DNA from: Echinarachnius parma
Lineage: Eukaryota; Echinodermata; Echinoidea; Clypeasteroida; Echinarachniidae
Reading direction: 5' to 3'
Assembly: GCA_037951105.1 (NCBI GenBank)
Contig: JBAMJV010010548.1
Span: forward strand, 42,832-106,831
Length of the DNA stretch: 64,000 nt
The translations under genes and the position numbers were made by a program. The notes under the pieces were generated by a model. It was not told the origin of the DNA and did not search any database. It was given only the letters and a program-made list of their open reading frames with translations. Numbering within the stretch: position 1 is the stretch's first letter; each line of letters opens with the position of its first letter. Shown here in pieces: positions 3,001 to 44,882 of this stretch.

Positions 3001-6000
3001 ATTATTCATTCAGAAAGTTATAACTGTATACAAAGTCAGTGCAATGAGTTGGCGAAAATCACTTTGCATTTTGTGCTCATTGCTCAGCCATATAACATCC
3101 ATTTCATGTGAAATTTTCACACATTACTTAGTGGATATATCTGATCACAAAAATGCATTTTTTATTAACCATTTATCACATTCTGCACATGTCAACCAAG
3201 TTACTAGATCCCTTTAAAGGTGGTTCGGATTCGTAAATCAGATGTAACGAGTCCTGTGACCTTGACCATGTGACCCCAAACTTTGATGGCTACATTGGCT
3301 CCCTAAGATACATTCAAGTACCAAGTTTGATTGAAATCTGACATTCAGTTCTTTCAATTTTGCCATTACGAGCCATTTTTGTATATATATATTGAGTCCT
3401 GTGACCTTGACCTTTGACCTTTGACCCCCAAATCTAATCCGATCATTGCCACCCCGATGTGTACACTCAACCAAGTTCGAAATTGATCCATCAACCGGTT
3501 CTTGAGATATTGCGAGAACGAGGCATTTTTGCACATATATTGATTCCTGTGATCTTGACCTTTGACCTCATTCACCCCAAAATCTAATCAGATCATTGTC
3601 ACCCCCATATGTACACTCATACCAAGTTTGAAATTGATCCGTCAACCGGTTCTTGAGATATCGCGAGAACGAGGCATTTTTGCACATATATTGAGTCCTG
3701 TGACCTTGACCTTTGACCTCATGACCCCTAAAATCTAATCAGATCATTGTCACCCCCATATGTACACTCATACCAAGTTTGAAATTGATCCGTCAACCGG
3801 TTTTTGAGATATCGCGAGAACGAAAACGGGACGTACGGACCAAGGGGGGGTAACTCTCCATAGAGTACGTGTTAAAAAAGTGTCAAATTTGAAGCGATTT
3901 ATCTAGGTCTTGAATATTCATGAGCTGTTCGCTTGCCCTCCCTCATATCTCTTAACTGTTAATCCAACATTTTTTGAAGGGAAAGCGAAAGTTCATCGCA
4001 CATGCGCAGAAGAATACATTTTGATGAATATTCATGAGGAATTTCGTCATAACTTTTACCTTATTTAGTAATGGATATGCCTTATTAGTCAAGTTTGCCC
4101 ATGCATAATGTCTATGAAATTATCAGTAAGGAATAATTAAGTATCGATAATATCGCGAAGTATCGCTAATCAGCTGATTTATTGCGGTCAAATTGTCCAC
4201 ACGTATTTAGTGCGACAGTACATGCTTTCTCAACCCATCATCGGAATTGGAAATCATTTTGTGACGCAAAGAGGCATTTTGAATGCCTATTTTTATGAGC
4301 ATCGGGTCCAGAATATTGAGTGGAATGGAACGCAGTATTTGAACCATCAAGAGTTTACAGCAATATGGGTAAGTGTGCCTAAAATCCTCATAAGGTTTTA
4401 CGCTTTAGTCAGTTAACCCTTCCACTGTGCGTAGGTCGTTATCTACGGTAGATAGCGATATTTAGTGTTTTGATGGGCCACCAGCCGCGGGGACAAATTG
4501 TATGTAGGACCGTACCTAGATTCCTAGTACCGTCTTGCTGCTGCAGTTGCATTCAGGCAACTTAATAATAAGCGAAAGTTTGATTTTGTAGACACAAAAA
4601 CGAATGGTCAGGCCATTAAATGTTGGTTTCGAGAGTCTAAATAAAGATCAGTATCATCGTGTCAAGTCTCAATATCAATTTAATTGAGTAATTAGTCAGA
4701 AATTATTGAAGAAACAAGTTTAAATATTACTGGTTTTCAAATCTAACTAAAATTGAATGAAGTTTGATGCGAGTCTGTGACTTTCAACTTGTACTGGCCA
4801 GCTACCAAAGCCTAAGGCTAAGGCAGCCTTGGCTTTTAAAAGGCAAAGATGGTCTAGCCTCTAGGAATTAGGGTAGGACTAGGCCGGTCCTCAGTCCTCG
4901 GGCTCATGCTCTCATTCTAATAACTGGAAACACTGGAACACAGACTGATTTTGGTAACTGAAATTATTAAAACTTTTTAAAAAGAAATCCAAATCACACT
5001 AGATTCTAGACAGTCAGTAGACAATGGGAACCAGTGCCAGCGGTCGTGGCCCAATAATTAACTTGGTTACTTGGTCTTGGCCTTGCCCTTGGCCTTGGGT
5101 GGTTCATTACGGTCATTCATAAACCAATTGTGTACATGTTACGTACGTGTACGTACTACGTAAGGCCTAATTAGATTAGGGCCATAATAAGATAGTGGCT
5201 GGACCTGGTCTAGTCAGAAATAACCAACTCTTTGTGTGGTTTATTATGTGTGGTTGTTTTTTTAAAATAAAAACTTATACTGTACTACCCCTAAATGGAG
5301 CGGTCAGTGGAGTAACTGTCGGAATATATAGAGACTGTTTTTCAGGTCTAGAGACAATGAATAGAGTAGTAAAATTTCTGCTTGTGCAGGGTCCAGAAAC
5401 TGCTGAGCTAGATGATAGTTGATGATAGATGATTTTTAAAATGATTGATAATTTTGCATGAATCTATGTTTATTGTGGTAGTAGACTACTACTAGTACTA
5501 TAGGATTCTATGTGAAATTATGAATGTAGACTATATAGTATTTTAGACTCGTCTCAAAGCAAATTACTGATTAATATCTATGTTCCTCTTTTTTTATTTG
5601 GTGAACTGGCACTGAAAATGGTTCGAAAATCCAACGATGGACACTGTCTAAGCGCTCTTGAATTGAGTATTTACTGTGATATAAACAAATTCATAATCGG
5701 ATTTATGTTTGTTTATTATTAATGTAGATATTTTGTTAATTTCTTCCGTTTACAGTGCAGTCTGATTCTGGTGCTTCATTTGTTGGAGATTCCTTCGGCT
5801 AAGGTGTGCTTCCTTTTCACCCATTGGCAATGCATGACGTGGATCATCACACCCAACAGGTAATCAACTTTTTTTTACTGATTACATTTCTGTCAATTTG
5901 TATAACAAATAGTGATATTAGATGTGTGTACTATTCTAACACTTATTCGTAAATATTAATATCATAATTACTGCATTTGGTGAAAAGATTTGATATATAT

Positions 6001-17792: not shown

Positions 17793-20700
17793 CCATCATC
17801 ATCACCATCACCATCACCATCACCATCTTCATCAACATAACCACCATCTCCTTTTTCAAATGCTGGAGAACCCATTAAAATCTTCATCATATCAAGATCA
17901 TCGTCATTATCATCATAATCATACTCACATCATCATAATTATTGCATTAGCATCATCACCCCAGAGTCTCTATAATCATCTTCATTCACATTCTCCAAAT
18001 AATCATCAGCATCAATAATTCTGCTATTGCTACTACAATTATAATGAAAAAAAATTTAACAAAAGATTAATTTACCATGAATCCGAGTTGCTGCTGTTGT
18101 TCCTTTGTGCGATCATAGTGAGTCACCTTGAGGCAGGGGTCATGTTTGGGGGCCTGGAGGTTCTCAATGAAGCTATTCCCTGCTGGGTCATTCAGTATCT
18201 GTAAAATGGAGATACATTTTTGTATAGCGATCTTCATATACAGTGTACCCAAGAATTATTTGGACACCTTGAAAAAATCACTTTAATTTAAATGATGCTA
18301 GAACAAATTTTGAAGAAAATGTTTGGTAAAAAGCTGCCTAAAATTCATTGTATGTGTTTATTAGATGCTGCTTTGTTGAAATCAAGATAAAATATAAGAC
18401 CATTTTTGAAAAATTATCAAAATAGTTAGTTTCCTATTTTTCAGGGTGTCTGATTTGCTCATTCAGGGGCATTTTCTGACTTGCGTTTTAATCGCAACTT
18501 TGCGATCAATCGCAACTCTTTATGCGAAACATGTGAAACACCCCCCGGGACTGATAACTTACAATGTGGAATGGTCTTGGGATGTCTTTTAACTTCTCGA
18601 TGAAGGCGTCAATCTGTGCAGCGACTTCAGGCTGTTGTGCCTACAGGGCAAAAAGAGGGTTAAACATTTCAATGTATAGATTTTACATGTACAGTACAAG
18701 TCAAAATAAACTAACCACCCTAACGCTTGCCTGCAGTAATCCCTATTCAATTTGAAAGATTAAACGAGAACTTGTTTGAGATTTAATCTCAATTATATAA
18801 GTAATAATAATGAGGGTTTACGTTCATATGAGACCCCGTCAGTGCGCATGCGCTAATCCGCAATATTCGTAGATAGCCGAGGATGTGCCTGCTGAACCAA
18901 GGCAGAAAGATAACGAGAACTGTGATTAGTAATAAGACCCAACATTAGGGAGGGTAAGGGAGGGAACGTAAACCCTCATTATTATTACTTATATAATTGA
19001 GATTAAATCTCAAACAAGTTCTCGTTTAATCTTTCAATTATACTACGTAATACCATTTCGGGATTACGTTCATATGAGATTTTGAAGCTCAGCAGGTACA
19101 TCCGATCCTGACAACAATATAATGTACAAATACATTTATTGAATGTAGGTATGGCCAGCAGACAACAAGACCGTTTTACTGACAAAACCTTTTAGCCCAA
19201 CTGACATTAGAGGTGTCTTGAAATCACTCCTGGCCATGTCCATTTGTGTCCATGAAGGACTTATGAGTGCACCTGTACATTCTATGCTCCTGTGTGTGCA
19301 CCTGTGAAGTAAATGTTCCTGTTCTTCACTGATTTCATGTATATTAAGCGTAGGAATACTTTCCGTAGACCAGCCTGCCCATTGGACCAGAACTCAATAG
19401 GAACAATATAAATATAAAATAATATATTTTCTACAAATCTATTCCAGCTTTTTAGCCAAGTTAACATGTGCATGAGGTACTAGTACTGTCCGTTACCCCC
19501 ATTGTCTTTGTTCTGCGTAAGAGATATCGCAGGTAACTAAATTACATGAGCCTCCTATTCAGTGGGTGTGCCTTCATTGGATAGTGGAAGTTCCACATAT
19601 ACCCCGGATCCTTTTCGGTAGGAGGTCCACTGCATTCGTCCAAAATACAAACAATTCAGTGACTAGACCCCCTGGGTCGATATAGAAAGGTGTGCAAAGT
19701 ATCATAGCCTAAGTCAAGCGTGAGGCGAAGAACCATGATAACCCCCTAAACCTCCTTTAACCTCAGGAGAGCGTAATTAAAGACAACCTCGTACGCCATA
19801 AGAGGGTGTTTATTTACTGGGCCTAATACCAGATATGCGATAATGTGCTGCATGCCAGCAATCAATGACTCCGAGTTCAAGCTTTCGTTTTCCGAAAGTC
19901 TGCCTGCAACCCAACAATGTGTATACATCCTCCTCTATAGATAGTCTAGCTAGGCCTCGTGGCTCATATTCAATTGATTGAGCAAGTAAGTCTAGTCGCA
20001 TGAGTTATTGGGTTAAAACCAATATCCAGGGGAGGGCACCTCAGTTGATTAAGCCTGATAGAACTATGAGCAGACCAGCTGCATCTCATCATACAGATTG
20101 TCCCAAAATGTTAAGGATAACAAAGGATGGGAAACTCAAATCAACAGTGAATGCCCCAATTAGGTAATAATTCATTTTACATATCACCCAAATAAGGCTA
20201 GTTCTGGGGACCAATTTCACTGAATGAATATATGTATTCAGCACCTTAAAGTGCCTGTACATTCGGTCTGCCTCCGAGTTATTTTCCCATCAAACGGGCA
20301 ACTAACATATCTTTGAATATTATGTTTACTCGTGCATAATTCGCAATGAATGCTGTATGCTGCCTCGTCGCTATATATGACGGCTTACATCAATCATATC
20401 AATACGGGGTAGTACATGTACATTGTCCACATTAATAACAAAGGATAGAATGTCACATTACCCAGCAGCTACCGTTCGTTAAAGGTAGTTTATGCCGTAA
20501 AATGTAGTTATGATATAGGCCATTCTATTTCTAATTCTATCAGCAACCTGTGCATAATTAGACTGAGCTTGATAATATAGCACCCAGCCATTCCCACTAG
20601 CATGGACGCAACTCGAGCTCCGATTTCGGTCTTCTCATGGGGGCGAGTAAAGATATCACATGGTGGGAACAACCAACCAATGAAGTTCCCCTCGAGACAT

Positions 20701-23700
20701 AATCATTATTTTACAAATAATGACTTACATTGAATGTCGCTTTACTGGGAGAAATGTATTCTCTCTCTCTAAATAGATGACAATCGACGAGAGGTCCACA
20801 CATTCCCCTCCTGGAGAATCGAAAAGATCTTCCAGATAACCTTGGCACCATGCCTTATCGAGCGATCCAAAATGATAATGCATATTTTCAAAGGCATTCT
20901 ATTTAGAGCGCTTTGCATTATAAAGGTCTAAATATCATAGTTCTATATTCAAAATGAAGTCAATGAATATAATTTCTTTAGTGGGATGGGTGCTGATTTC
21001 CCAGGGTGAATAAAACCCAAGATGCACAAAAATGTCAGAAGTAGCTTTATAGCTCCCTTGAGTTGTTTTAATCCACTCCAATAATCAGGATTGTATCATC
21101 CAGATATCCTGACCCGACTTAATTTAGTATAGTGCATAGACCTGGTGATGTACCAGGGCCATAGAGTAGGGCTAGAATTGTCAGCATAAATCATAGTAAT
21201 TCAATCCGAGGTATAAATTATCCTCATGGGTAGTTCGACAATATACAATATACGTCACGGAGATTGCTAGACAATTTTCAGGGAATACACAGTCCAGCAC
21301 CATGTGCATGCATGTAGCCCGTATGGAATATGCATGTCAATGACATGAAAATAGTCAACTCAGAAAGAGTCCTTGAGAATTAAGGCGTACCCCATTCTTT
21401 ATTGGTCTAATAGTAATACAAATATTAGATATGAATTCGCCCACTTATATCTTGGCAGGGCTCAATACCATTCAATTATTTATAGACTAGAGGCTACTAA
21501 TAAACTCGTGTGTGCATTCAGCATCACATGTGACGCCTTCTATATTGCGCGTTCATGTAGGGATTGAATTATTTCCACGCCGGAAACTCATAGCATCCCA
21601 TGACAGGCCTAATAACATTAAGGTCCGTAATTCTAGCCAGTTTTCTGACAACCTCAATCGACCCAAAAACTTGGGATTATTACAAATATTAAATATTAGC
21701 ATTATAGGCAAAACGAGTTCATTCAAAGTAATCCACTTGCCTTGTCTGAATTTGGAGTTCTATTTACTCCTCTGCATGTTGGCCTACGGGCTCACTCTTG
21801 GCACCAGGCACTAGCATTTGAGACTGGCTTAAATTTAGCCTGTCACGATTGAGCGTGTGGAGGTATAGTCAGTCCCTCCTTTCTGAGTGTACCCTAACAC
21901 AGGGGCTATTCTGCGATCACTACACTCCTGACATAGGCCTGGACTACACGGCCGGCAGTGGGCTGGGCTCTACGAGCCCAAGCGAATATTCCGATCGCAT
22001 AAATAGTGGGTTATAGTCATGTACGTCCCCGGTGGGGATGGCGAGGCGGTATTTAAATTACCTCTCATGCTCATATAGCAGAAAATGTACGTTGCAAAGT
22101 ACGTAAACCTTGCATTCAAGTCAGGGTGCATTATTTCTTATTGCAGATATTCGAGTTATAAGTATAAATTGCCATTGGCTTAGCAATTCAATGCCTATAA
22201 TATAGGGCCATCTAATCGATGTGTATCAGTACACCGCCCATATAAATGGAGCGTCTCACTCAAGTCATATAGTCATAGGCAGCCTTTGGCTCCAAGATTG
22301 AAGCCGAAGGGAAACATAGATAATTCCCATTTTGTTTAAGAAAGGAGTCAACTTCGCTGAAAGGGATTTATAAGTAAGCATTGGCGCCCATTGTCGCCGT
22401 ATAGTATAGATACATATTAGTATTCTATAAATTCGAGTCACGACATTCGTGGCTTTATATCTGTATATTAATGACTCTTATAATCAGACTGACAATATCA
22501 AGTTCAGTTGTATTCTCTATGCACTTGCTTGTATCTGGATAATTAGCGGAGAATCTTCAAGAAACAGTGTCACTGTCACCTCTAATATTAGGTGCGACAT
22601 AAAGTAAGAGTAGACAAGCTACTTCTTATTCAATAAAATACAATAGATTCTCAAATATATCCAATGCGAATTGCCATTGCAAATTTTGCGGCGATAGAGA
22701 GAATGACAAATTGATCAGGTTTGCCTGAAATGTACCAACTTAAAAGCCCGGTGGGCGGTATGTCATTCATAATAGCTCGAAATAGATATTTATCTTTGAC
22801 GCGCGCTAACCCCCGTGGGGCAGCGGACGGGTGTGAGCAGCCGTAGCATCGGCAGCGGCCAATTAGGTCTGCATAATTCACGCTTACAATAAGTACTAAG
22901 TACTAGTTTATAGCGCTTCCATATCCAGTCTAGTATTACTGAACGGAGATAAGGAATCACAGATTACGGCTTTAAAATAGAGCCAGTCTATTTCCCTGTC
23001 TCGCTCATAGTTACTCATAGCCTTTGGCTTCGAGTTTGAATACGATCTACTTTCCTAAACCCACTCTTGGCGACTGTGTCACCAGCGGCCGTGCCGCAAG
23101 AGTAGGATAATCTCGACCCCCGTCAGAGCCCGTGGCTCCTGCGCTAGGCTGTGCCTAGCATGCAGACGGGGGACGGACTCGCTCGATCATTGCCTTTGGC
23201 ATCGAGTCTGAATTTGATAACTTTCCCCGCCCACTCTTGCCAACTGTGTCGGCAGCAGCTTTGCCGCTAGAGTGGGGAACTCTCCCCCCGTATGAGCCCG
23301 TGGCTCCGGCGCTAGGCTGAGCCTAATACGCATGGGGAATATGCAGCCGAGCTGCAATCCATTCTACGAGACGATCAAATCCGGCCTAAAATAACACTTG
23401 GAAAACAAGATTTGATATAAATAAACGTCTCAAAAGTACTAGAGAATATCAAATATAATCTAGAAACGATTTGTTACCTTCAAAAAGCGGGGATTGCGCG
23501 GATAAAATTGCATATATTCTAGAGATCGAAATGTGTCCTTTCGCTCAGAATGCACGCGTAACCAACGAATTTGTGGATTAGCGCATGCGCACTGACGGGG
23601 TCTCATATGAACGTAATCCCGAAATGGTATTACGTAGTATAATTGAACACATCAATAGGGATTACTGCAGTTTACTGCAGTAATGTGGTTAGTTTATTTT

Positions 23701-26501
23701 GACTTATACTCATTATATATGTATAAGGCCATTGCTTTTTTCCTGTAAAAGGTGTTAACATCCAATCTGTTACCATTTTGATTAGTTGTGGACTCAATTA
23801 TTTACAGATCCAAAAGATTTTTCTCCACACAAGTCATCTAGTTAGTACCTACCTTGGGTAGCATAGTCACCCTTAAGTAGAAGTTTCTGCTTTAGATTTT
23901 AACATGCACATATAGTATCATGTATGTACCATAACTGTCACGTTATGACATGTACAAATTTTGAAATTTTGACCCTTGGGAGGCACATGTTACACCCTTT
24001 ACCAACATGATCAATACCATATGCTGTTCCTAGGAGTAGGGATAGTACAGTTTTTTTCTTTCAAATTTGACACTCAGTTTGTCATTATCTCACAAAAAAA
24101 TATTTTGTGTAGCGCCCTTTATACCAAAACTCCACTATCCCTTTAAGCTTGGTTTACTACACAGGGCTCGACACTAGCACTTGCCCTATTGCCCGGGGCA
24201 AGTAAAAATTGATGTCGGGCAAGTAAAATTTCACAAATGGGCTAATAGTCAAATGGTCAAATTGTTTGGTTGCCCGATGGGGCAACTCAATTATTGGTGA
24301 ACTACAAGAGGAAAATGTAATTCCATACATCTATATCTCATCAAGAAAATGGGCAAGTCAATTATCTGTTTGGGCAAGTAAATTTTTAAAAAGTATGATT
24401 TTACTTGCCCGAATGGAGGCTTGACTACGTACCTTTCTGACTGGCTGATCCTGTTCTAACCCCTCTCTAGCTCTCTGGATCAACCCCTCGACTGTTGTTA
24501 GTGCTGTCATGAAAGCAGAACGAGAATACAACAAACTTTCATACTAACATATAAAATCAAGCTTAAAGGGAACCAACACCCTACTAACAAAGAGTTGAGC
24601 TTCAATCAATCTTATTTCTGTTCTGTTAGTGTTGTGATGAAAGCAGAATAAAATGCAATACACTTTCATCGGTCCTGGTTATCATACTAGCATAAAATTA
24701 AAGGTGCACCTGTAAATTGTCAAATATTGCCCAAAATTACATTTGAGACTTCAATCCTGTACCAAAATCATTGTAAGATATGTCCGAATGATGTGTGAAA
24801 GTTTCATTGAAACAGAACACTGTTTTCCTAGTTAAAAAAGTGAAAATATGCGTCAGCTTTTACAACGGACGTTTATGAGGTTTATGACCATTCATTAACG
24901 CTTTTGAGCTGAATGATAGATATCGTCATACTAAAGGGGCATTTGAAAAAATCTAAAAACCCTATATTTTATTCTTCTCTTACCAAAAGCTAAACAACAC
25001 GGTAGAAGAGAAACGAGGAAGCTCCAAGTAATTTTCGTGGAGTTAGACACTGTACAGGCATCCCTTCAATCAACCTTATTTCTGTTATTAGTGCTGTGAT
25101 AAAAGTAGGAAATTTTTTTTACAAAAAACTTACGCTGGTTAGGGTATTCATACTACTAACATAAAATTAAGCTCCAACAGAACTTTTGTTTTACTGCCAA
25201 GCTTTTGTCCACTCCTGTGGACTTTAAAAAAGAAAAAACATTATTGAGGCATCTATAGCCAGAAATATGGCAAACTTGTCACATTTGAAAATCAAACAAA
25301 TTGGGTTTCCCTAACAGACACATTTTTGGGAGTTTGTTCTTCTGTTTACACTTTTTGTACTTTTTTTCAAAATTAATTTTTGTATGCCAATTTGTACTTG
25401 TTTTTGTGTTAAAAGGGGGTTTAATTTGCTGAACATGTACATGTTCTTGAAACGCCCCCAATAGGGGGTCATATTTCACTGCGAATGATCTTTGAATATG
25501 AAGTGACAGGGCCACAGAACGAGTGAGTACAGTGAATCATAATACAGTGAAACCTGTCTATAAAGACCACCCAAGGGACTCTGAAAAAGTGGTCTTTATC
25601 AGCAGGTGGTCTTTATCAGACAGGTTCATTTACATGAAGACTGCATTCAAGTAAGGCCGAGTCGGTTCGGTTGGTCACACCAGGACCCTGTTGCATAAAA
25701 CTTACCATTAATGGTTACTTTGCTTTCAATGTTAACTACCATGCCATCAAGACACCATAACCAATCAGCATCAAGGATTCTATGGAAGTTACCATTAAAA
25801 TCCAACTTACCATTAATGGTAAGTTTTATGCAACGGGGCCCAGGTTCCGACCGTCACCATCGGGTCCCGGTTTTGTTTTTTCGGAACCGGGGCCCTACAC
25901 TACAGGGTGTTTTTTTTTAATTTAAACATAAAAAATATTTTTAAAATGTTTAAATTATTTTGTTTTCTCTTTTTTTTTCTTCGGGGCACCGGGTGTCATA
26001 ATGTAAATAGGCTACACCCCCCCCCCCCCTTTCCACTATGTTACTATTGATTTGCATATAGTCTGTATTTTAACCCATCTAGCCGGTAATGCTACATAGT
26101 ACCAGGAGTTGATGGTAAGGAAAAGTGTTACCAGCATAGGCGCCGGAAGTGGGGGGGCAGGGGGGGCGGCCGCCCCCCCAATCCAAAAAGTGGGGGGGCA
26201 AAACGCGTTTTTGCCCCCCCAAAAAGCCCCCCCCCCCCTCAAAAAAAAAAAGAAAAGAAAGAAAGAAAGAAAAGGGAAAAGACCAGAACGTCAATGACGT
26301 AGCGCTCATCCGGCATCTCGCAACATCAAATATCGCAAATTTCATGTGGTACACTTTTCAACTGGTCAAAAAATAATAATGTGATGCCCTGGAAGGGACA
26401 TAAAAATTAATAAAAAAAAAAATAGAGTGAATAAAAATATAAATTTGACGCCCCAGAAGGGACATGGGAAAAAAAAAAAAAAAAATTTAATTTAAAAAAA
26501 A

Positions 26502-32600: not shown

Positions 32601-35418
32601 AAGTGTCAGATAGTGCCCAAAATGACATTTGAGACTTCAAAATCATTGTAAGATATGTCCGAATGATGTGTGAAAGTTTCATTGAAAAGGAAAACTGCTT
32701 TCCTGGTTAAAAAAGCGAAAATATGCGTCAGCTTTTACAACGGAGGCTTTTGAGCTGAATGATAGATATCGTCATACTAAAGGAGCATTTGAAAAAATCT
32801 AACCCTATTTTATTCTTCTCTTACCATAAGCTAAACAACACGGTAGAAGAGAAACGAGGAAGCTCCAAGTAATTTTCATGGAGTTAGACACTTTACAGGC
32901 ATCCCTTAAATAACTAAAGTCAAGTGACATAATAATCAGCAAGTTAATTGTGGTTGCTAATGTGCACTTTGTATGCAGGAGAGATTGAAGTGTGCATGTA
33001 TCCGTTGACCGGGGGAACAATAATAGCGCTTAGACTTAGAGGCTCATTGCAATTTGCACTCTATAAGCATCTATGTTACAGGGTGGCCCCAAAAAACGGA
33101 ACGGGGCACTTCCCAAAATATAGTAACAGATGTATTATGTATATCGGATAGCGTTTCTTTTCAAATGAACAACGATACCAAGAACAGTCAATTTGGTTGT
33201 GTAGTTTTTGTTTTAGGGCGCTGTGAGTGACACCATGTCAGGTTCCCTTTTTTATCAATTTTTACCAAGTCAGTGCTTGATAAATCGCACTTACTGCCCG
33301 TCATACCATCGAACAAAGAGCAATACGCGCGCCATTGTTAGTACGCATTCAGCTGTGTGCCGAGAGAATGGGCATGCTATCACGGGCAGGAAGTGTGATT
33401 TATCAGGCAGTGACTTGGTAAAAAATGACAAAAATGGGAACCTGACATGGTCTCACGACGGCCTACAACAAAAACTACTCGTCCAAAATGACTGCTCTTG
33501 GTATCGTTTTTCATGGGAAAGGACACTCTATCCGATGAACATTATAATTATATTAAATAATTTACCTTATCCCAACATAAATAAACACCGAATGTTCAGT
33601 GCGTGTTTGAGCCGCTGTGAAAAAATATCACAGGCGGACTCGGGTAGGAATCGAACCCACAACCTCCTGATTGCTAGACTGGCGTCATACCACTAGACCA
33701 CCGAGATTGCCCCGATGACTATACGGCTGGTTCGATTCACATAATAGCAGTAGGTACTGCGTTAATTTATCAAATAAATGATTCTTAGGTTGGGTGAATT
33801 TGATTATATTAAATAATTTACCTTATCCCAACATAAATAAACACCGAATGTTCAGTGCGTGTTTGAGCCGCTGTGAAAAAATATCACAGGCGGACTCGGG
33901 TAGGAATCGAACCCACAACCTCCTGATTGCTAGACAGGCGTCATACCACTAGACCACCGAGATAACTGCTATTATGTGAATCGAACCAGCCATATAGTCA
34001 TCGGGGCAATCTCGGTGGTCTAGTGGTATGACGCCTGTCTAGCAATCAGGAGGTTGTGGGTTCGATTCCTACCCGAGTCCGCCTGTGATATTTTTTCACA
34101 GCGGCTCAAACACGCACTGAACATTCGGTGTTTATTTATGTTGGGATAAGGTAAATTATTTAATATAATCAAATTCACCCAACCTAAGAATCATTTATTT
34201 GAGAACATTATAATGTTGTTAATATATTTTGGGAAGTGCCCCGTTCCGTTTTTGTTGGGCCACCCTGTATATGGAAGAAGAAGAAGAATCTTGAAACACT
34301 CACCTTTTCTGTCCTGATCTCCACATCAAACTCACAGCCCTGGTCCTGTAGACCGGACGCAGGCTGGATCTCATTGTTGGAGTGGTGGCAGTGCTCGCAG
34401 TCGAACGAGCTGATCACCACCGACTTGAAGAACGGGATCTTGGTCAGGAGGAGACGAGTCTTTCCCTGTATAAAAAGACACAATGAATTGTAAAGAATAA
34501 TAATTTAATTTATTTGGTCTTAATACTGTCCAATACGATGAGATGGTGTCTTAGTGGAAAAAATACATGGGGGCTTGGGGCAAATTCAACCCTGAAATGC
34601 CAAATAGAGCCGCCAAAATTTTGCATAGAGTTCAATACAAATCAAATTTTGGAGTGTTATGCCCGGCGCAGACAGAGCCGACTCGACTGGTTGTCATTCC
34701 CATCGGATCAGTTTTCAGTGCCTCGCGACACACATTTTGCCAGTTGAGAGACAGTCGGATGCCAGTAGGGGCCGATTGAACAAGATAGATCTGCTCCGAC
34801 CGACCGAGCCCAACTTTAGCCTGTTTGAAACCAGTCGGGTCGGGTCGAGTCGGCTCTGTCTGCACCTGGCTTTATTTTCATGCAGGCAAGCTTGAAAAGT
34901 AGCTCCCCAATGGTGTCTACTTGATTTCAAGAAATTACAATTCTGTATAAAAAGATATATATAAAGTTATATAAAATTGTGTGACTTGGAGCCATTTAGC
35001 CCCCAAATGCCTACAGTTCCCAGGACGTCCCAGCTAATTATCATGTATAGAGTTCAATGCAAAAAATCTTTCAAGAGTAATTATTTAATGCTACATTTAC
35101 AAAACGCAGCCCACACAAATACCATTTCATTCTTTTGCTCCCTAAGATGCTGTACAATACCACATTAGCATTCATGTAAATGGTCATACTAGGGTATAAA
35201 CAATGCATGTTGAATTTGAATTGATCATTTATTTCAAATCTCATAAAAACAATAACATTAACAAATCACATCAAAATTTACAAAATATAACAACAGATAA
35301 ATACAATTATGAGAATGAGGAGACAGCTAGAAAGAGCAAAATAGCCTTATTAATGCTGCCACCGAATATATAAAATTGAATTAAAACCTACCTACATAAC
35401 ATAGACATATACAACATG

Positions 35419-35449
<31 letters not shown>

Positions 35450-37847
35450 ATACACATATACAATTTTAAAAGGCCTGACCTAAAAAAAAAAAAAAATTAT
35501 AAACATTTACTGTAACAAGATTAATCTATATCTCCGTTTAAAAGCTGATAGAGTGGGGCTTAGTTTTACATGTATCGGTAATTTATTCCAAATTTTTGGT
35601 CCTTTAAAACAGATTGAGTTCATGGCTACATTATTATGTACACGCGGTAAACTATAAGTTAATTGATTTCGCATATTGTATGTATACTTATCGGAATTAA
35701 GATGAAACAAATTTGCAAGACTACATGGAATCAAATCTTTAAAACATAAAAACATAAATATAGCAATGTTAAAATTATTAAGATCAAATACATTCAATAA
35801 TTTTAAATCACAAAATATTGGTTTGGTATGGGCAAGGTAGTGGGCATGATATACAAGTCTTACGGATTTCTTCTGTAAACGAAACAATCTCATCATTGAA
35901 TAATTACAATTGTTAGCCCAAGTAGTATTACAATAATGGAGGTATGGAGAAATAATTGCATTATAAATCATTAATAAAATATTTCGTGGAAAAAATTTCA
36001 ATCGATTTAAAATACCAATACATTTAGAAAGTTTATTGCAGACAGTATCGATGTGGTCATGCCAAACAAGCTTACTATCGATCAAGACACCCAAAAACTT
36101 AAATGAATCAGCACGTTGAATAATCTCATCATTCATACAAATGACAACATTATCATAATCAATTTTCTTGTGAGTAAAAAACATGTAACGAGTTTTATTT
36201 ACATTAAGAACCAATTTATTTAATATTAACCAGTGATTAATTTTAAACAATTCAAAATTAAAATTCAAAATTAAAGTATCAATATCGTCACCTGACACAA
36301 ACACACTGGTATCGTCTGCAAACAAAATAAATTGCAACTTATTTGAGACATTACATATATCGTTCATATAAACAAGAAATAAAAGTGGGCCAAGAATTGA
36401 GCCTTGGGGCACTCCACATTCAATTGCACTCATATCAGATTTATGATTATTAATGACAACATATTGTTTACGATTTGACAAGTAACTTTGAAATAATTTT
36501 AAAAGGACACCACGAATACCGTAATTATGTAACTTATATAACAAAATGGAGTGATCTAAAGTATCGAAAGCCTTACTCAAATCAAGAAACAAACCAAGTA
36601 ATATATTTTTAGAATTAAAGGCTGAAGAAACTTTAGCAACTAAATCAATTATAGCAGAGGATGTGGAGTGCCCTGCTCTGAAACCATACTGTGTGTTAGA
36701 TAAAATATCACACTTTTCCAAGAAGTTTAAAAGCCGATTATATATACATTTTTCTAAAATCTTTGAAAAAACAGGTAACACTGAAATAGGTCTATAATTG
36801 TTAAGGCTTGAACTCAGACCACTCTTATAAACCGGCGTTACTTTTGCCACCTTTAATTTATCCGGAAATATACCAGTGTTCAAAGAAGAATTAAATATAT
36901 TGCACAATGGAAAACAAATTATGTGAATAACCTTTTTAATAATCGATATATTAATATCGTCACAACCCGCACTTGATCGATTCTGAAAATTACAAATTAT
37001 AGTTACAATCTCTCCAGGAGTGATCGGTTTAAAAAATGCTGTCTGAGGATTTTCTTCCAAGTATTGCACAAAATCATTCTCATTAATATTATCACTTTGA
37101 AGGTGATTAGAAAGAGATATACCTATATTTACAAAATATTCATTAAACGATTGTGCTATATCATATTCGTCTGTAATTTTCTGATCGTTAACTTCAATGC
37201 AATCGATCATACTTGATTTTGAAGTTTTTCCTAATGCTTTATTAATTACATCCCATGTTTTTTTCATATTATATTTAACATCAGAAAACAATTTTTTTAA
37301 ATAGGCATTTTTTGTACGCTTAATTTCATTATTCACCTTGTTTCGAAATTCTTTATAAATACGTTCTCTATAAGCAGTTGGATTCTTAATAAATTTTTTA
37401 TATAAATCATACCTCTTTTTACACAATTTACGCAGCTCTTCATTAAACCAAGGCTTGTCTTTACGCAATTTAACAATCTTATTTTTTAGAGGAAAACATT
37501 CATCATATATTTCCATAAATTGATGTAAAAAATTGTCATACTTAACATTTGGGTCATTATTATTAATACGCCATGGTACTTTTTTCAATTTTTCAATAAA
37601 AATATTTATATTTCTATCACATAAATCACGTTTCTTTGTTATTCTACTTGTATCATTAACAAAATCATTATGAATACAATATATGTGTTGGCAAGTCTTT
37701 GATACCTGCCAGCCATGCATTGTCCATGTACAGCCTGTTATATGTTACCTGTTCATGGCAGTTCATACACAGACTCTCCATCTCCATCGTCTCCAGTTCA
37801 TCCAGATTCTCTGCCGAGAGATCCTTGAACAGAGGCTGGTCGGCCAT
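1..37847 (-). CDS. ZPR1: ZPR1 zinc finger protein, nine exons visible, 3' end outside window
   Basis: ZPR1 proteins bind newly made eEF1A and help it fold, and shuttle between cytosol and nucleus. The gene was rebuilt from GT-AG exons at 37749-37847, 34304-34465, 31492-31582, 24433-24503, 18563-18640, 18076-18198, 17352-17526, 1948-2108 and 1-78; all join in frame. The product shows the family's duplicated plan. First half: a C4 zinc finger (CMNC in exon 1, CEHC in exon 2), then an alpha/beta domain with [19 protein letters not shown] and NDPAGNSF. Second half: another finger (CSNC in exon 7, CDGC in exon 8), then LEIPELEF and GGKFT. About 346 codons are present; the human protein as I recall it is about 459, so the C-terminal quarter lies to the left. 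Exon 7 carries an acidic linker between halves. Introns range from 0.36 to 15 kb, inflated by repeats. Recognition rests on remembered family sequence; no search was run. Confidence 0.93.
146..521. mobile_element. TTAA-flanked MITE, copy 1 (piggyBac-like)
   Basis: A 376-bp non-coding element with terminal inverted repeats AGGTGCACCTGTAAAGTGTC and its complement. It is bounded on both sides by TTAA (142-145, 522-525), the target duplication used by piggyBac transposons. Sister copies lie at 24702-25065 and 32588-32905. Confidence 0.8.
526..1130. other. AT-rich ZPR1 intron 8 sequence, no gene seen
   Basis: The first 250 bases (TTCAAGTTCAATTTATTT onward) resemble the 3' untranslated end of a CR1-type LINE in reverse orientation, but no coding part is attached. 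A short (ATT)n tract lies near 1088-1108. Nothing else is recognised. Confidence 0.3.
1139..1425. repeat. Foldback repeat
   Basis: Two arms of about 95-100 bases (from 1142 and up to about 1420) are inverted copies, for example TATCATAGCACTTTACATTA on the left and its diverged complement on the right. Half-copies of the same family lie at 2575-2790 and about 32955-33065. Confidence 0.65.
1948..2108 (-). CDS. ZPR1: ZPR1 exon 8, zinc finger 2
   Basis: One hundred sixty-one bases, acceptor GCAG|AT, donor AGG|GTAAGG. With the base carried over from exon 7 it reads [19 protein letters not shown], followed by [10 protein letters not shown], and ends in [17 protein letters not shown] completes zinc finger 2. 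Confidence 0.93.
2149..2541. mobile_element. Foldback element with palindromic AGTCC satellite core
   Basis: Near-perfect inverted arms of about 80 bases (ATACGTGTGGTTTGCGGTTG at each end) enclose about eight copies of a ~22-bp unit, each centred on the palindrome AGTCCTTTCTAGGACT. It lies just outside ZPR1 exon 8. Confidence 0.8.
2575..2790. repeat. Interspersed repeat fragment
   Basis: This shares the segment around TTACCCCAGTCATCGGATAC, AAAGTGCACGTTTTCCACTC and GGGGAGCATTCCAGCC with the foldback at 1139-1425, so it is one arm of that family. Confidence 0.55.
2938..2958. repeat. Poly(C) tract
   Basis: An uninterrupted run of C, one of about fifteen C or G homopolymers in the window. Confidence 0.9.
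3238..4010. mobile_element. Tandem-core repeat element (about 165-bp units)
   Basis: Four imperfect copies of a unit holding GAGTCCTGTGACCTTGACCT, AATTGATCCGTCAACCGG and TTGAGATATCGCGAGAACGA run to about 3830. They are followed by ACGGGACGTACGGACC and a tail that matches 13020-13110 in inverse. The core is the same family as 16380-17100. Confidence 0.7.
4011..6779. other. ZPR1 intron 7 sequence without a recognised gene
   Basis: Mostly unique AT-rich sequence. Short open frames at 4210-4416 and 5195-5422 show no family likeness. Three segments (ending 4370, 5757-5858, from 6302) have splice-like borders on the plus strand and are discussed as a candidate transcript. A repeat related to the CAGTTAAACCTGTGTA family spans about 6500-6690. 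Confidence 0.4.
7110..7454. mobile_element. TA-flanked MITE
   Basis: Terminal inverted repeats CCGTAAATCTCCGTGT and ACACGGAGATTTAGGG are bounded by TA on both sides. The GTGTATAAGGCGCACCCC motif occurs near both ends. No coding capacity. Confidence 0.7.
8749..8791. repeat. Long poly(C) tract
   Basis: About 40 bases of almost pure C, the longest such tract in the window. The glycine-rich open frame on the other strand is a by-product. Confidence 0.9.
9130..10290 (+). repeat. Tandem array of ~322-bp units
   Basis: ACAACTTTCATTCTTCATCA recurs at about 9400, 9721 and 10043, with a partial first unit. Each unit holds the palindromic AGGGCCCCCCTGGGGGCC segment. It forms the core of the element at 6780-10412. 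Confidence 0.85.
10413..12819. other. AT-rich intron sequence with microsatellites
   Basis: No gene recognised. It contains a poly(C) tract at about 12005-12027 and a compound tract of (TGTT)n, (TTG)n, T and G runs at 12415-12497. The short open frames here are low-complexity. Confidence 0.5.
12820..13140 (+). mobile_element. End fragment of a tandem-core element
   Basis: CATGAATATTCAAGACCTAG and ATAAATCGCTTCTAATTTGA match 3880-3940 in inverse. It ends in a (GGAC)n tract followed by AACCCGAAAACA, as does the element ending at 17197. Confidence 0.5.
13441..13622. mobile_element. TA-flanked MITE (CAGTTAAACCTGT family)
   Basis: Ends CAGTTAAACCTGTGTA and GACAGGTTTGACTG are bounded by TA at 13439-13440 and 13623-13624. 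Related fragments are at about 6500-6690, 25543-25632 and 31365-31420. Confidence 0.65.
13705..15157. mobile_element. Large foldback element, ~600-700 bp arms
   Basis: Begins TAGTCCAGTCAA and ends TTGACTGGACTA. The arms (13705-14440 and 14560-15157) are inverted copies: both hold the CCTCGGCAAAATTGCAACATG segment, CAAGATGGC and TTTGCATAATTATG-type blocks in mirror order. No protein is encoded. Confidence 0.7.
15158..16067. repeat. Extension of the foldback with palindromic octamer repeats
   Basis: The terminal block of the foldback recurs at 15985-16067, ending TTGACTGGACTA again. Between lie four copies of a TTTGCATATTATGCAAA palindrome near 15282, 15581, 15757 and 15914. Confidence 0.6.
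16262..17197 (+). mobile_element. Tandem-core element with GCCTCCGC ends
   Basis: Left end ATTATGCCTCCGC and right end GCGGAGGCATTAT enclose about five ~165-bp units (GAGTCCTGTGACCTTGACC...) and a (GGAC)n tract at 17104-17145. The core is shared with 3238-3830. A (GTTTGA)n tract precedes it at 16219-16246. Confidence 0.7.
17352..17526 (-). CDS. ZPR1: ZPR1 exon 7, acidic linker and start of zinc finger 2
   Basis: One hundred seventy-five bases, acceptor CTAG|GCT, donor ATCG|GTAGGG, ending in phase 1. It opens with an acidic, low-complexity linker (EEEE, DDDD, PPPP runs) and then gives [20 protein letters not shown], the first cysteine pair of zinc finger 2. Confidence 0.9.
17575..18010. repeat. 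(ATC)n-rich low-complexity stretch in ZPR1 intron 6
   Basis: Dense CAT/ATC triplets plus a (GCA)n patch at about 17617-17634 and 17691-17702. The Asp-, His- and Ile-rich open frames here are artefacts of the triplet repeat. A (GAA)n tract lies just outside exon 7 at 17289-17315. Confidence 0.85.
18076..18198 (-). CDS. ZPR1: ZPR1 exon 6
   Basis: Forty-one codons, acceptor ACAG|ATA, donor ATG|GTAAAT, phase 0. It encodes [20 protein letters not shown] and the segment [15 protein letters not shown] that closes the first ZPR1 half; the DPAGNSF motif is a family signature. Confidence 0.93.
18563..18640 (-). CDS. ZPR1: ZPR1 exon 5
   Basis: Twenty-six codons, acceptor GTAG|GCA, donor CATT|GTAAGT, phase 0. 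It encodes [20 protein letters not shown] followed by PRPFHI, the helix before the NDPAGNSF motif. Confidence 0.9.
18697..23707. mobile_element. 5-kb inverted-repeat element with hairpin-rich interior, unclassified
   Basis: Outer ends carry inverted copies of GTCAAAATAAACTAACCAC and CTGCAGTAATCCCTATT. Inside these sit inverted copies of TTACGTTCATATGAGACCCC and GTCAGTGCGCATGCGCTAAT (18813-18868 and 23578-23630). A third partial copy is at 19037-19079. A smaller perfect foldback (18756-18835 against 18960-19038) occupies the left end. The interior (19081-23570) has no long open frame on either strand and no recognisable transposase. It is studded with short GC-rich hairpins having 3-nt loops. 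It lies in ZPR1 intron 4. The superfamily is not recognised; no clean target duplication was found. Confidence 0.7.
22998..23350 (+). repeat. Two tandem ~175-bp units with conserved multi-hairpin folding
   Basis: Both units run in the same order: AGCC-TTT-GGCT type hairpin, an ACTCTT/AGAGT outer stem enclosing a second hairpin, then a GAGCC-CGT-GGCTC hairpin and a TAGGC/GCCTA hairpin inside a CCCC...GGGG stem. In unit 1 the outer stem is CCCCCGTC (23117-23124) with GACGGGGG (23165-23172). Confidence 0.7.
24153..24425. repeat. Interspersed repeat rich in GGGCAAGTAA
   Basis: It contains GGGCTCGACACTAGCACTTG followed by repeated TGCCC and GGGCAAGTAAA motifs in both orientations. It ends beside ZPR1 exon 4. 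It looks like a MITE, but its termini are not certain. Confidence 0.45.
24433..24503 (-). CDS. ZPR1: ZPR1 exon 4
   Basis: Seventy-one bases, acceptor ACAG|CA, donor AAAG|GTACGT. With the base carried over from exon 3 it reads [20 protein letters not shown] then PVRK, the central helix of the first alpha/beta domain. Confidence 0.9.
24702..25065. mobile_element. TTAA-flanked MITE, copy 2
   Basis: Same family as 146-521. The left flank is TTAA (24698-24701); the right flank has decayed to TCAA (25066-25069). Confidence 0.75.
25543..25632. repeat. Fragment of CAGTGAAACCTGTCTA repeat
   Basis: Starts TACAGTGAAACCTGTCTATA and ends ATCAGACAGGTTCA, with GGTCTTTAT repeated inside. It belongs with 13441-13622. 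Confidence 0.5.
25689..25834. mobile_element. Short MITE, GTTGCATAAAACTTACC ends
   Basis: The arm TGCATAAAACTTACCATTAA recurs in inverse at the right end, ending GCAACGGGGCCC. It is immediately followed by a second palindromic block, GGTTCCGACC...GGAACC, to about 25895. Confidence 0.65.
26301..27176 (+). mobile_element. Tandem-core element nested in the hAT-like element
   Basis: Left end AGCGCTCATCCGGC. About 2.5 copies of a ~135-bp unit (AAATTTCAAAATTCTGTGTA, AAATCAAAATCGGT) are followed by a (GGAC)n tract at 27063-27125 and a terminal hairpin GGGCCCTTCGGGCC before GGATGAGCT. The left half is a poly(A)/(TAAA)n block. Confidence 0.6.
27966..28403. mobile_element. Tandem pair of GGCGCAGACAGAG inverted-repeat elements
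   Basis: Two adjacent ~210-225-bp elements (27966-28175, 28180-28403) each begin GGCGCAGACAGAGCCGACTC and end in its complement. The pair is duplicated at 28784-29221, and a solo copy lies at 34661-34871. Confidence 0.75.
28784..29221. mobile_element. Second copy of the GGCGCAGACAGAG tandem pair
   Basis: Nearly identical to 27966-28403, about 816 bases further on, and therefore part of the higher-order duplication. Confidence 0.75.
30074..31491. other. ZPR1 intron 3 sequence, no gene seen
   Basis: 30430-30640 is a degenerate array of CGTACTTCGTA-like motifs. 31265-31315 holds a GGGTTCCGACC/GGAACCC palindrome related to 25835-25895. The rest is unique AT-rich sequence. Confidence 0.45.
31492..31582 (-). 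CDS. ZPR1: ZPR1 exon 3
   Basis: Ninety-one bases, acceptor ATAG|GAC, donor GGAA|GTAAGT, ending in phase 1. It encodes the start of the first alpha/beta domain ([20 protein letters not shown], then [10 protein letters not shown]). Confidence 0.9.
31941..32022 (-). repeat. tRNA-derived SINE fragment
   Basis: On the minus strand TGGTCTAGTGACC (A-box-like) is followed by GGGTTCGAACCC (B-box). The rest does not fold as a full tRNA, so this is read as a SINE head, not a tRNA gene. Confidence 0.5.
32038..32139. repeat. Short foldback
   Basis: CATGGGCGTAGAT and ATACCTATTCATCAGG on the left pair with CCTGATGAATAGGTAT and ATCTACGCCCATG on the right. Confidence 0.7.
32588..32905. mobile_element. TTAA-flanked MITE, copy 3
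   Basis: Same family as 146-521, with TTAA on both sides (32584-32587, 32906-32909) and a short internal deletion. Confidence 0.8.
33549..34202. mobile_element. tRNA-derived SINE copies in inverted array, nested insertion
   Basis: Flanked by an exact 12-bp duplication GAACATTATAAT (33537-33548, 34203-34214). Inside are two copies on the minus strand (33549-33785 and 33795-33963) and one on the plus strand (33990-34200). The last two form a palindrome with ~190-base arms. Each carries a tRNA-like head with TGGTCTAGTGG and GGTTCGATTCC. Confidence 0.75.
34010..34078 (+). repeat. tRNA-like head of the SINE (anticodon AGC)
   Basis: A 69-nt segment from TCTCGGT to CCCGAGT. A-box TGGTCTAGTGG, anticodon stem CCTG/CAGG around loop CTAGCAA, and B-box GGTTCGATTCC are present. 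The acceptor stem has only about five pairs and three copies exist in one insertion, so it is SINE-derived, not a tRNA gene. Confidence 0.55.
34304..34465 (-). CDS. ZPR1: ZPR1 exon 2
   Basis: Fifty-four codons, acceptor TACAG|GG, donor AAG|GTGAGT, phase 0 on both sides. It encodes [20 protein letters not shown] and the second cysteine pair of zinc finger 1 (CEHC), followed by the NNEIQPASG turn typical of the family. Confidence 0.92.
34661..34871. mobile_element. Solo GGCGCAGACAGAG inverted-repeat element
   Basis: Begins GCCCGGCGCAGACAGAG and ends CTCTGTCTGCACCTGGC. Flanks are TTAT on both sides, which suggests a short TTA-type duplication. It confirms that the elements in 27966-29221 are mobile units. 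Confidence 0.7.
35219..37680 (-). mobile_element. CR1/L2-like non-LTR retrotransposon (LINE), 5'-truncated
   Basis: It sits in ZPR1 intron 1 in the same orientation as the gene. The reverse transcriptase frame is intact, but the upstream endonuclease domain is missing, the usual result of incomplete target-primed reverse transcription. The 3' untranslated part (about 35219-35506) includes T-rich runs on the coding strand (A-rich at 35419-35449 and 35482-35494 on the plus strand). The 5' junction lies about 60-70 bases from the exon 1 donor. Target duplication not resolved. Confidence 0.8.
35507..37720 (-). CDS. LINE reverse transcriptase (partial ORF2)
   Basis: This frame encodes the reverse transcriptase of a CR1/L2-type LINE, which copies element RNA at a nicked chromosomal target. 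In 737 residues: a connector rich in Lys/Asn (1-200); fingers with [16 protein letters not shown] (about 309-324) and [14 protein letters not shown] (about 344-357); palm with [10 protein letters not shown] (Asp about 380), [13 protein letters not shown] (436-448) and the FADD active site (467-470); then the thumb and a C-terminal [18 protein letters not shown] motif. No stop or frameshift interrupts it, so the copy is young. The apurinic endonuclease domain that should precede it is absent, so it cannot act as a full element. The first ~12 residues probably come from host intron sequence read in frame. Confidence 0.85.
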   Translation of the reverse strand: MHGWQVSKTCQHIYCIHNDFVNDTSRITKKRDLCDRNINIFIEKLKKVPWRINNNDPNVKYDNFLHQFMEIYDECFPLKNKIVKLRKDKPWFNEELRKLCKKRYDLYKKFIKNPTAYRERIYKEFRNKVNNEIKRTKNAYLKKLFSDVKYNMKKTWDVINKALGKTSKSSMIDCIEVNDQKITDEYDIAQSFNEYFVNIGISLSNHLQSDNINENDFVQYLEENPQTAFFKPITPGEIVTIICNFQNRSSAGCDDINISIIKKVIHIICFPLCNIFNSSLNTGIFPDKLKVAKVTPVYKSGLSSSLNNYRPISVLPVFSKILEKCIYNRLLNFLEKCDILSNTQYGFRAGHSTSSAIIDLVAKVSSAFNSKNILLGLFLDLSKAFDTLDHSILLYKLHNYGIRGVLLKLFQSYLSNRKQYVVINNHKSDMSAIECGVPQGSILGPLLFLVYMNDICNVSNKLQFILFADDTSVFVSGDDIDTLILNFNFELFKINHWLILNKLVLNVNKTRYMFFTHKKIDYDNVVICMNDEIIQRADSFKFLGVLIDSKLVWHDHIDTVCNKLSKCIGILNRLKFFPRNILLMIYNAIISPYLHYCNTTWANNCNYSMMRLFRLQKKSVRLVYHAHYLAHTKPIFCDLKLLNVFDLNNFNIAIFMFLCFKDLIPCSLANLFHLNSDKYTYNMRNQLTYSLPRVHNNVAMNSICFKGPKIWNKLPIHVKLSPTLSAFKRRYRLILLQ
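37749..37847 (-). CDS. ZPR1: ZPR1 exon 1 (start codon)
   Basis: Thirty-three codons beginning [19 protein letters not shown] and ending with the first cysteine pair (CMNC) of zinc finger 1. The donor reads CAG|GTAACA and the phase is 0. The upstream region contains three decayed copies of this exon, so this is the only one with an open frame, a start codon and a usable donor. Confidence 0.9.
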
Positions 37848-44300: not shown

Positions 44301-44882
44301 GACAACAACAGGCTGGGCCAGTTTGAGTTGTCTGGCATCCCTCCTGCTCCTAGAGGCGTGCCAAAGATCGAGGTCACCTTCGACATCGATGCCAACGGCA
44401 TCATGAACGTGACGGCCAAGGACCAGAGTACTGGTCGCAGCAACAAGATCACCATCACAAACGACAGCGGCAGGCTGTCAAAGGAGGACATCGATCGCAT
44501 GGTCAACGATGCAGAGCAATACAAAGCTGAAGACGATGCCCAGCGAGAGCGCATCGCCGCCAGGAACCAGCTGGAGAGCTACGCCTTCAACATCAAGTCT
44601 GCCGTCAACGATCCCGCGGTCGAGAGCAAGCTGAGCTCCGGTGACAAGCAGGCCGTGATCAAGGCGGTCGACGATGTCATGTCCTGGCTGGAGAGCAACT
44701 CGCTGGCAGAGAAGGACGAGTACACGTACAAGCTGGAGGAACTGCAGAAGACGTGCTCTCCCGTCATGGCTAAGATGCACGGTGGACAACCAACAGGAGG
44801 ATTCAACCCAGGAGCGCAGGGTCCTACTGGGGGTCAGCATCCGCAGGGCAATGGTGGGCCAACTGTCGAGGAAGTCGACTAA
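41376..44882 (+). CDS. Cytosolic HSP70 chaperone, copy A, two coding exons
   Basis: ATP-driven chaperone of the cytosol and nucleus that binds exposed hydrophobic peptides. Exons are 41376-41563 and 43130-44882; the donor splits a Met codon (AT|GTAAGT) and the acceptor is CTCCAG|GAATCC. The product is 646 aa, normal for the family. Seen: [14 protein letters not shown] at the N-terminus, [31 protein letters not shown], the interdomain [19 protein letters not shown], a substrate-binding domain with [20 protein letters not shown], a Gly/Pro/Gln-rich tail and terminal EEVD, which binds TPR co-chaperones and marks the cytosolic class. The intron falls at the codon-63 position I recall for HSPA8-type genes. 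Heat-shock elements upstream argue for inducibility. This copy looks fully functional. Confidence 0.95.
41733..41749. repeat. Poly(C) tract in HSP70-A intron
   Basis: A run of C followed by GGACGATGATTCGAC. The matching place in HSP70-B (51354-51373) also carries a poly(C) run, so the tract predates the duplication. Confidence 0.9.
41771..42357. mobile_element. TA-flanked MITE in HSP70-A intron
   Basis: Ends CACTACTCACAAAAAGTAAG and its complement are flanked by TA (41769-41770, 42358-42359). The element is absent from HSP70-B, which carries a different element at almost the same place. Confidence 0.85.

Follow-up and report, generated by a model that had tools for sequence, protein, structure and literature searches.

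A gene-less element inserted in a host repeat

The window analyzed here is a 64,000-nucleotide stretch of the Echinarachnius parma genome (GCA_037951105.1, contig JBAMJV010010548.1, positions 42,832 to 106,831), and in it lies a ~4.9-kb element (about 18750–23643 in window coordinates, which are used throughout) that is in all likelihood a non-autonomous, non-coding DIRS1-like (tyrosine-recombinase) retrotransposon with its RNA sense on the minus strand, the RNA 5′ end lying at the right and the 3′ end at the left. Pieces of a ZPR1 domain flank it on both sides, encoded on the minus strand (jr-ZPR1, 1.1e-11 at the left and 2e-4, below cut-off, at the right), and the element therefore sits in a ZPR1 intron in the same orientation as the gene. 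The assignment draws on inverted ends of the DIRS type, an internal complementary region (ICR), integration without target duplication, relatives encoding a reverse transcriptase (RT) and a recombinase, the decay of the interior, and a fold at the start of gag that is common to the relatives.

An earlier note, made from the letters of the stretch alone, had read 18697–23707 as an unclassified element with nested inverted ends. The repeats exist: inverted pairs are found at 18693–18718/23685–23710 (96% identity), 18731–18747/23654–23670 (100%), 18798–18863/23571–23636 (88%), and 19033–19079/23601–23647 (100%), and a perfect 74-nt inverted pair is confined to the left side (18752–18825/18964–19037). 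However, the outer ends do not belong to the element. A search of the genome (1.2 Gb in 14,790 contigs) with the earlier note's interval as query gave at least 188 matches and, beyond the window copy (L246), seven rows at 95–99% identity span only query positions 51–56 to 4947–4949, which places the outer ends outside the element. Two of the seven copies, on C807 and C2942, have flanks in common and could represent a single locus in two versions. By BLAST, L248 comes closest to the window copy, at 99.0% identity, and a second subfamily is ~78% identical over its longest pieces. The genome search that the note had proposed thus yields at least seven further near-full-length copies, together with relatives bearing RT and recombinase genes, and by these comparisons the element is a recent copy of a mobile element without genes.

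The outer pair represents the two halves of a short inverted-repeat host family, resembling miniature inverted-repeat transposable elements (MITE-like), whose ends read AGTAYAAGTCAAAATAAAC. Using the host repeat as query, 40 matches were scored among 201 candidates; the centre of the repeat is present in nine of 11 fetched copies (the window's own excluded), exactly as CCCTATTGATTTGTACACATC in three, the remainder being variants such as TTGAACACATG in L284. In the window, the flanks run ..CCCTATTCA and TGAACACATC.., with ATT at the element's left edge and AAT at its right, and they join around one trinucleotide if a small difference (CA for G) is allowed. Comparison with other copies of the host repeat, rather than with an empty allele of the same site, reveals no target duplication beyond this shared trinucleotide, and none is seen at the printed junctions of the genome copies.

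DIRS1-like elements are described, in a published account (PMC3266345), as having mostly NTT termini, with ATT the commonest, and as integrating without target duplication. Here, the left junction is AATTGAAAG in 15 of 18 readable cases (the exceptions are the window copy, L254, and L271), and the 18 right junctions read GTATAAT in 15 and GTATAAC in three, giving the NTT termini and AAT junction of DIRS1-like elements at 15 of 18 on either side. A Helitron was considered for the junctions between an A and a T without duplication. Helitrons end in TC..CTRR and lack inverted repeats, and the ATT..AAT ends and long inverted repeats rule this candidate out.

Inverted termini and an internal complementary region

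The segment 18964–19037 is the reverse complement of 18752–18825, and 19033–19079 is that of 23601–23647; the last bases of the latter fall in the flank, where the match would be due to chance or to target choice. The whole of 18964–19079 mirrors both ends of the element joined through a common ATT/AAT, and its internal junction, CTTTCAATTATACTACG, is what the right end fused via AAT to the left end gives when reverse-complemented. The same account (PMC3266345) gives DIRS1-like elements inverted terminal repeats (ITRs) and, at the 3′ end, two ICRs whose overlap is a 3-bp circular junction and, judged by its sequence, the left-side mirror region is the ICR of such a retrotransposon.

The ICR is complementary to both termini in all 15 near-full-length copies tested: within each copy, the left terminus and the ICR correspond over 73–76 nt with 0–1 mismatch, and the right terminus and the ICR over 42–46 nt with 0–3 mismatches. 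When termini are compared with ICRs across subfamilies, the right match drops to 35–36 of 38 or 40 of 45, and the left is 70–72 of 73–74. The subfamily-specific changes at the right end are present in both the terminus and the ICR, so ends and ICR change together, as predicted if the ends are rebuilt from the ICR. The ITRs typical of DIRS1-like elements are also present, and two gene-bearing relatives (L275 and L276; see below) have the same ITR/ICR layout. Both ITRs contain GCGCATGCGC (18844–18853 and 23581–23590), which we take to resemble the NRF-1 binding motif and which could be a promoter element.

Relatives encoding a reverse transcriptase and a tyrosine recombinase

A 337-base query from the left end (40 matches scored among 246 candidates) has many matches on contigs absent from the whole-interval list. 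Two of these places, L275 and L276, have an RT frame (RVT_1, 2.7e-19 and 9.3e-25) and a tyrosine recombinase frame (Phage_integrase, 9.2e-11 and 1.6e-12) on the strand equivalent to the window's minus strand; downstream of the RT, the Dam and PCIF1 models match below cut-off, at the position that a methyltransferase domain occupies in DIRS1-like elements. The recombinase query gave 125 matches across the genome (122 of 217 candidates scored), and 16 recombinase frames are free of stops, 91–100% identical, and span at least residues 1–312 of 329. Such a frame adjoins a left-end match on nine contigs (C3904, C9335, C6420, C335, C12529, C1411, C3163, C2393, and C13009), at a distance of ≤0.2 kb on eight of them and 1.2 kb on the ninth. 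The relatives share nearly the same 3′ end with the gene-less element, and autonomous relatives probably copy the gene-less element on its behalf.

Inverted ends in many copies could also belong to a cut-and-paste DNA transposon with long inverted repeats, moved by an unrelated transposase. We regard this as highly improbable: such a model does not account for the ICR, a target duplication is missing at both the split host repeat and the printed junctions, and relatives with the same ends carry an RT and a tyrosine recombinase; the last two points are also the grounds on which a terminal-inverted-repeat DNA transposon was rejected as the element's class. The earlier suggestion of a non-autonomous transposon of an unrecognised family is therefore correct as to a large non-autonomous mobile element, but it derives from a known superfamily, the DIRS1-like retrotransposons, with gene-bearing members in the same genome.

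A decayed interior

The interior had been reported to lack any long open frame, and we find the same: the longest stop-free stretch in the element is 107 amino acids, and its six-frame translations (with X at stops) have no Pfam match at cut-off. In 28 of 29 windows, three-base periodicity stays at background; the other reaches 2.8, compared with 3.9–12.3 for an HSP70 gene. Recognisable remnants of gag, RT, and recombinase lie in collinear order on the minus strand, with many stops and frame breaks, and the RT register of six non-autonomous copies contains 10–14 stops in each. RT/RNase H and recombinase coding capacity is seen in L275 and L276 and is absent from the window element, which we therefore file as a non-autonomous derivative and not as an autonomous member. 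Differences at the three codon positions are.089/.049/.144 between the autonomous L275 and L276 and.205/.207/.190 between the non-autonomous L246 and L255; by this comparison the interior is former coding sequence that has decayed and now evolves free of codon constraint.

Identity to L276 is highest at the 3′ end (81%) and next highest in the first ~480 nt (74%). RNA positions 150–480 of one copy, L258, are 97–98% identical to L275 and 60–66% identical to L255; L258 looks chimeric, as expected if both kinds of RNA are copied together. As in L258, the 5′ ends of the gene-less copies L259 and L254 (RNA positions 1–480) are 97–98% identical to L275 over 150–480, and all three point to likely template switching with autonomous RNA. 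The 3′ kilobase (18850–19950) is 87–97% conserved between subfamilies, compared with 71–90% in most of the middle, and either selection or recent exchange is a possible reading. The dinucleotides of 19080–23570 differ from those of the rest of the window, with an observed/expected ratio of 1.04 versus 0.80 for TA and 0.95 versus 1.12 for AA. Four frames of at least 120 amino acids lie in insertions of two copies (C5145 and C6737).

Hairpins and a tandem structured unit

The interior had also been called hairpin-dense, with five short stems named as examples. All five exist, and they are mostly kept in 15 copies, although subfamily 2 has partly lost the stem at 21964; no compensatory change was found in the five among these copies. 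Background was taken from 60 dinucleotide shuffles and from the rest of the window scaled to equal length. Triloop stems of at least five pairs number 18, versus 5.2 ± 2.3 in the shuffles (highest 14) and 9.9 in the scaled window, and those with at least four G-C pairs number 10 versus 2.6 in the scaled window; stems with loops of 4–8 bases are near background (1, 4, 2, 4, and 2 versus 2.7, 2.6, 2.1, 2.4, and 2.7). The excess of GC-rich stems is limited to three-base loops. The density claim holds for these triloop stems, but not for foldability at large: the mean z is −0.92 over 71 windows of the element versus −0.61 over 114 background windows, with 15% and 14% of windows, respectively, below z −2.

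GC-rich, short-loop stems in AT-rich DNA are what had suggested captured organelle-like or structured-RNA sequence. The element does carry structured RNA, but this corresponds to the start of its own gag and nothing in the comparisons made points to an organelle. We give practically no credence to an origin in captured organelle DNA or in mobile hairpin elements of mitochondria: the interior follows the order of a DIRS element, no Rfam covariance model matches the element at E ≤5, and the hairpin elements of sponge mitochondria (PMC2800124), the closest described hairpin case among the sources consulted, have longer stems and loops of 5–7 bases or none, differing from those of the element in both stem and loop. 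There is no phage match to the earlier note's whole interval and no plasmid match to 21900–23570. The end motif has no matches in viral contigs, and patterns of hairpin pieces have 5, at least 120, and at least 120 matches in viral contigs and one in a prokaryote contig, which we take as chance because the patterns are short. Parvovirus-like terminal hairpins, weighed for the T-shaped folds, were rejected, the folds here being internal and corresponding to gag.

The hairpin excess centres on a tandem unit of ~175 nt near the RNA 5′ end, and the strongest fold signal lies in the tandem pair 23015–23157/23187–23325 (80% identical). On the minus strand, each unit is predicted to form two three-way junctions, each with two triloop hairpins, together with a small extra hairpin, the fold being less clean in unit 1 than in unit 2. 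Unit 2 has a fold z of −5.0 as minus-strand RNA and −2.3 as plus-strand RNA, and sense folds better than antisense in nine of nine units. Unit 1 aligns with the gag start of autonomous relatives, and in L275 and L276 the gag ATG is where the model match starts. The unit is present twice in most gene-less elements examined. An autonomous-type locus, L291 (C1179:97990–98370), has three adjacent gag-start unit matches, suggesting that the unit has multiplied more than once.

A scan of 38 loci with the unit model gave 41 matches, 36 of them distinct, with most two-unit copies contributing one unit only. In the 36 distinct units, 94.1% of cells are paired, versus 28.6–45.3% for structures slid by 1–3 columns; 14 pairs are changed on both sides versus 7.8, and double-change cells number 54 versus 15.1 ± 3.8, with 0 of 500 shuffles as high. 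Eight units outside model building behave similarly in their double-change cells (19 versus 6.4 ± 2.0; 0 of 500 as high), and the 10 autonomous-type units covary strongly (24 versus 7.3; the highest of 300 shuffles is 15). Over all units, G-U cells outnumber A-C cells by 120 to 16. Between the autonomous and non-autonomous groups, 30 of the 41 consensus pairs are identical, five are changed on both sides, two on one side, and four fail in one group; differences affect 32 of 89 unpaired and 16 of 82 paired columns, and the RT region differs at ~35%.

What the unit does admits several answers. It could be an RNA fold for gag translation, controlling the start site or a frameshift, that the gene-less lineage has inherited; in L275 and L276 the unit starts precisely at the gag ATG, which fits this, but most of the gene-less elements examined, in which no gag is made, hold two copies, and a role in gag translation alone does not explain a doubled unit in a gag-less element. 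We consider this reading unlikely. A stronger contender, although we would not expect it to prevail, is that the unit has no function of its own and is a leftover of gag, GC-rich repetitive coding sequence that folds by chance in gene-less copies too young to have lost it. Its location within gag coding sequence in the relatives, the weak covariation among non-autonomous units, and the lack of compensatory change in the other named stems all suit a leftover; the strong covariation among autonomous-type units and in units outside the model, the five pairs changed on both sides, and the lower divergence of paired columns relative to unpaired columns and the RT region argue against it. Alternatively, the two-junction unit may be the clade's candidate packaging or dimerisation signal, placed over the gag start, which the gene-less lineage would have kept and doubled to compete for its relatives' proteins; we put this forward tentatively, as a model that falls short of an even chance.

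Several observations weigh against the interpretation of the element and its unit as favoured here. Among the relatives, the gag start of L275 does not stay in frame and L276 exceeds L275 by ~1.7 kb, and we do not claim that either is complete. Just 2–3 stops in the RT register are common to both subfamilies, so much of the decay may postdate the subfamily split. The unit alignments were fitted to the model and the kinship of the sequences inflates the counts; the number of pair types is not raised in the eight units outside model building (298 of 500 shuffles as high), and the 26 non-autonomous units taken alone covary weakly (8 versus 3.5, the highest of 300 shuffles also being 8), with pairing of 95.9% versus 95.0%. 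The non-autonomous units supply most of the G-U excess (98 to 5), which is slight among the 10 autonomous-type units (22 to 11). Fourteen coding controls range in z from −2.17 to 1.51, two of them (−2.17 and −2.14) equalling the weakest units, and with DNA parameters both strands of unit 2 fold about equally (z −4.97 and −4.41), which leaves room for a role of single-stranded DNA. Lastly, no convincing fold was found in stretches from four more distant DIRS families of the same genome, with 48–59% recombinase identity: the best match (11.6 bits, E 0.0025) lies away from the gag start, L300 scores 4.5 bits at its gag ATG, and L297 shows no gag-like frame.

Proposed propagation of the gene-less lineage

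Taken as a whole, we hold the favoured explanation, a gene-less DIRS1-like element mobilised by its relatives, with high confidence. Transcription would start from the right-hand ITR, and the RNA would be packaged and copied by the proteins of autonomous relatives; the ends would then be rebuilt from the ICR to give a circle with the predicted junction sequence GTATAATTGAAAG, and the AAT junction of this circle would recombine with a matching AAT-like trinucleotide of host DNA. Close to the RNA 5′ end, the tandem unit may act as a cis signal for packaging, dimerisation, or priming, which would explain its retention and doubling where coding sense is lost. Its designation as a candidate packaging signal, suggested by position, covariation, and retention, is the least certain step, and we rate it slightly below an even chance.

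If this is correct, the co-occurrence of autonomous and gene-less relatives within a single genome makes the candidate packaging signal directly testable. A gene-less lineage needs only cis-acting sequence and so amounts to a natural deletion experiment, and its preserved ends, ICR, and 5′ fold would be a short list of the sequences that DIRS replication may need.

Features of the element and other contents of the window

Table 1. Coordinates of the element, its parts, and the host repeat that it splits.
Feature	Coordinates	Strand	Basis
Whole element, probable non-autonomous DIRS1-like	18750..23643	-	Genome copies, junctions, split host repeat, letters; boundaries ± ~1 nt
5′ inverted terminal repeat (right side), end ..GTATAAT	23571..23643	-	Repeat pairing, junctions, copies
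3′ terminus: ITR (18798–18863 pairs with 23571–23636, 88%) and extension to 18750	18750..18863	-	
Internal complementary region (ICR)	18964..19079	-	Repeat comparison, 15 copies
Structured unit 1, nearest the RNA 5′ end, two predicted three-way junctions	23195..23362	-	Model match, 170 bits
Structured unit 2, tandem to unit 1	23010..23194	-	Model match, 207.6 bits
Decayed end-of-gag and RT/RNase H region	20246..22068	-	64.7% identity to L276; 11 stops in RT register
Tyrosine recombinase remnants, two short pieces (19297–19350 and 19500–19616)	19297..19616	-	tblastn E 0.005–0.46 and ~1e-5
Host short inverted repeat (MITE-like), left part, outside the element	18693..18749	.	Split host repeat
Host short inverted repeat (MITE-like), right part, outside the element	23644..23710	.	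Split host repeat

Elsewhere in the window, two long frames (43092–44882 and 54547–56235) read by eye as tandem HSP70 proteins, and a 745-amino-acid frame (35507–37744) reads by eye as a reverse transcriptase of the long interspersed nuclear element (LINE) type. An Rfam scan of the window at gathering score found three tRNA matches only, all outside the element; they lie within 33639–34077, two being opposite in orientation with equal score, and may be tRNA-derived repeats.

Comparison with known systems

The packaging signals of retroviruses and long terminal repeat (LTR) retrotransposons occupy the 5′ region and the start of gag and form branched RNA folds. The tandem unit is similar in position and predicted branching; no sequence relation is claimed. 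TOC1 of Chlamydomonas is likewise a gene-less element of the DIRS order, several kilobases long and without coding capacity, but it has split direct repeats and not inverted repeats. SIRE of Trypanosoma cruzi is described as a truncated, non-autonomous, gene-less form of VIPER (PMC6681497); both SIRE and the element described here are thus gene-less derivatives of tyrosine-recombinase retrotransposons, although SIRE consists of a few hundred bases of the VIPER ends, whereas the present element has kept its full length and has inverted repeats, an ICR, and an interior that has decayed. Searches by phrase of the open-access literature, as far as its texts were accessible, returned neither a non-autonomous DIRS1-like element nor a DIRS packaging signal.

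The closest likeness is to DIRS1-like elements as characterised in the published account (PMC3266345), with which the element shares ITRs, a 3′-end ICR with a 3-bp junction overlap, ATT termini, an AAT junction, and integration without duplication, and its relatives share an RT, a tyrosine recombinase, and possibly a methyltransferase domain. It differs from them in that gag, RT, and recombinase all lack an open frame in its lineage, which also bears a structured gag-start unit in tandem copy. An apparently unclassifiable element can thereby be placed and, if the placement is right, a DIRS1-like lineage has kept spreading after gene loss, as non-autonomous LTR elements do. DIRS1-like elements themselves are already known.

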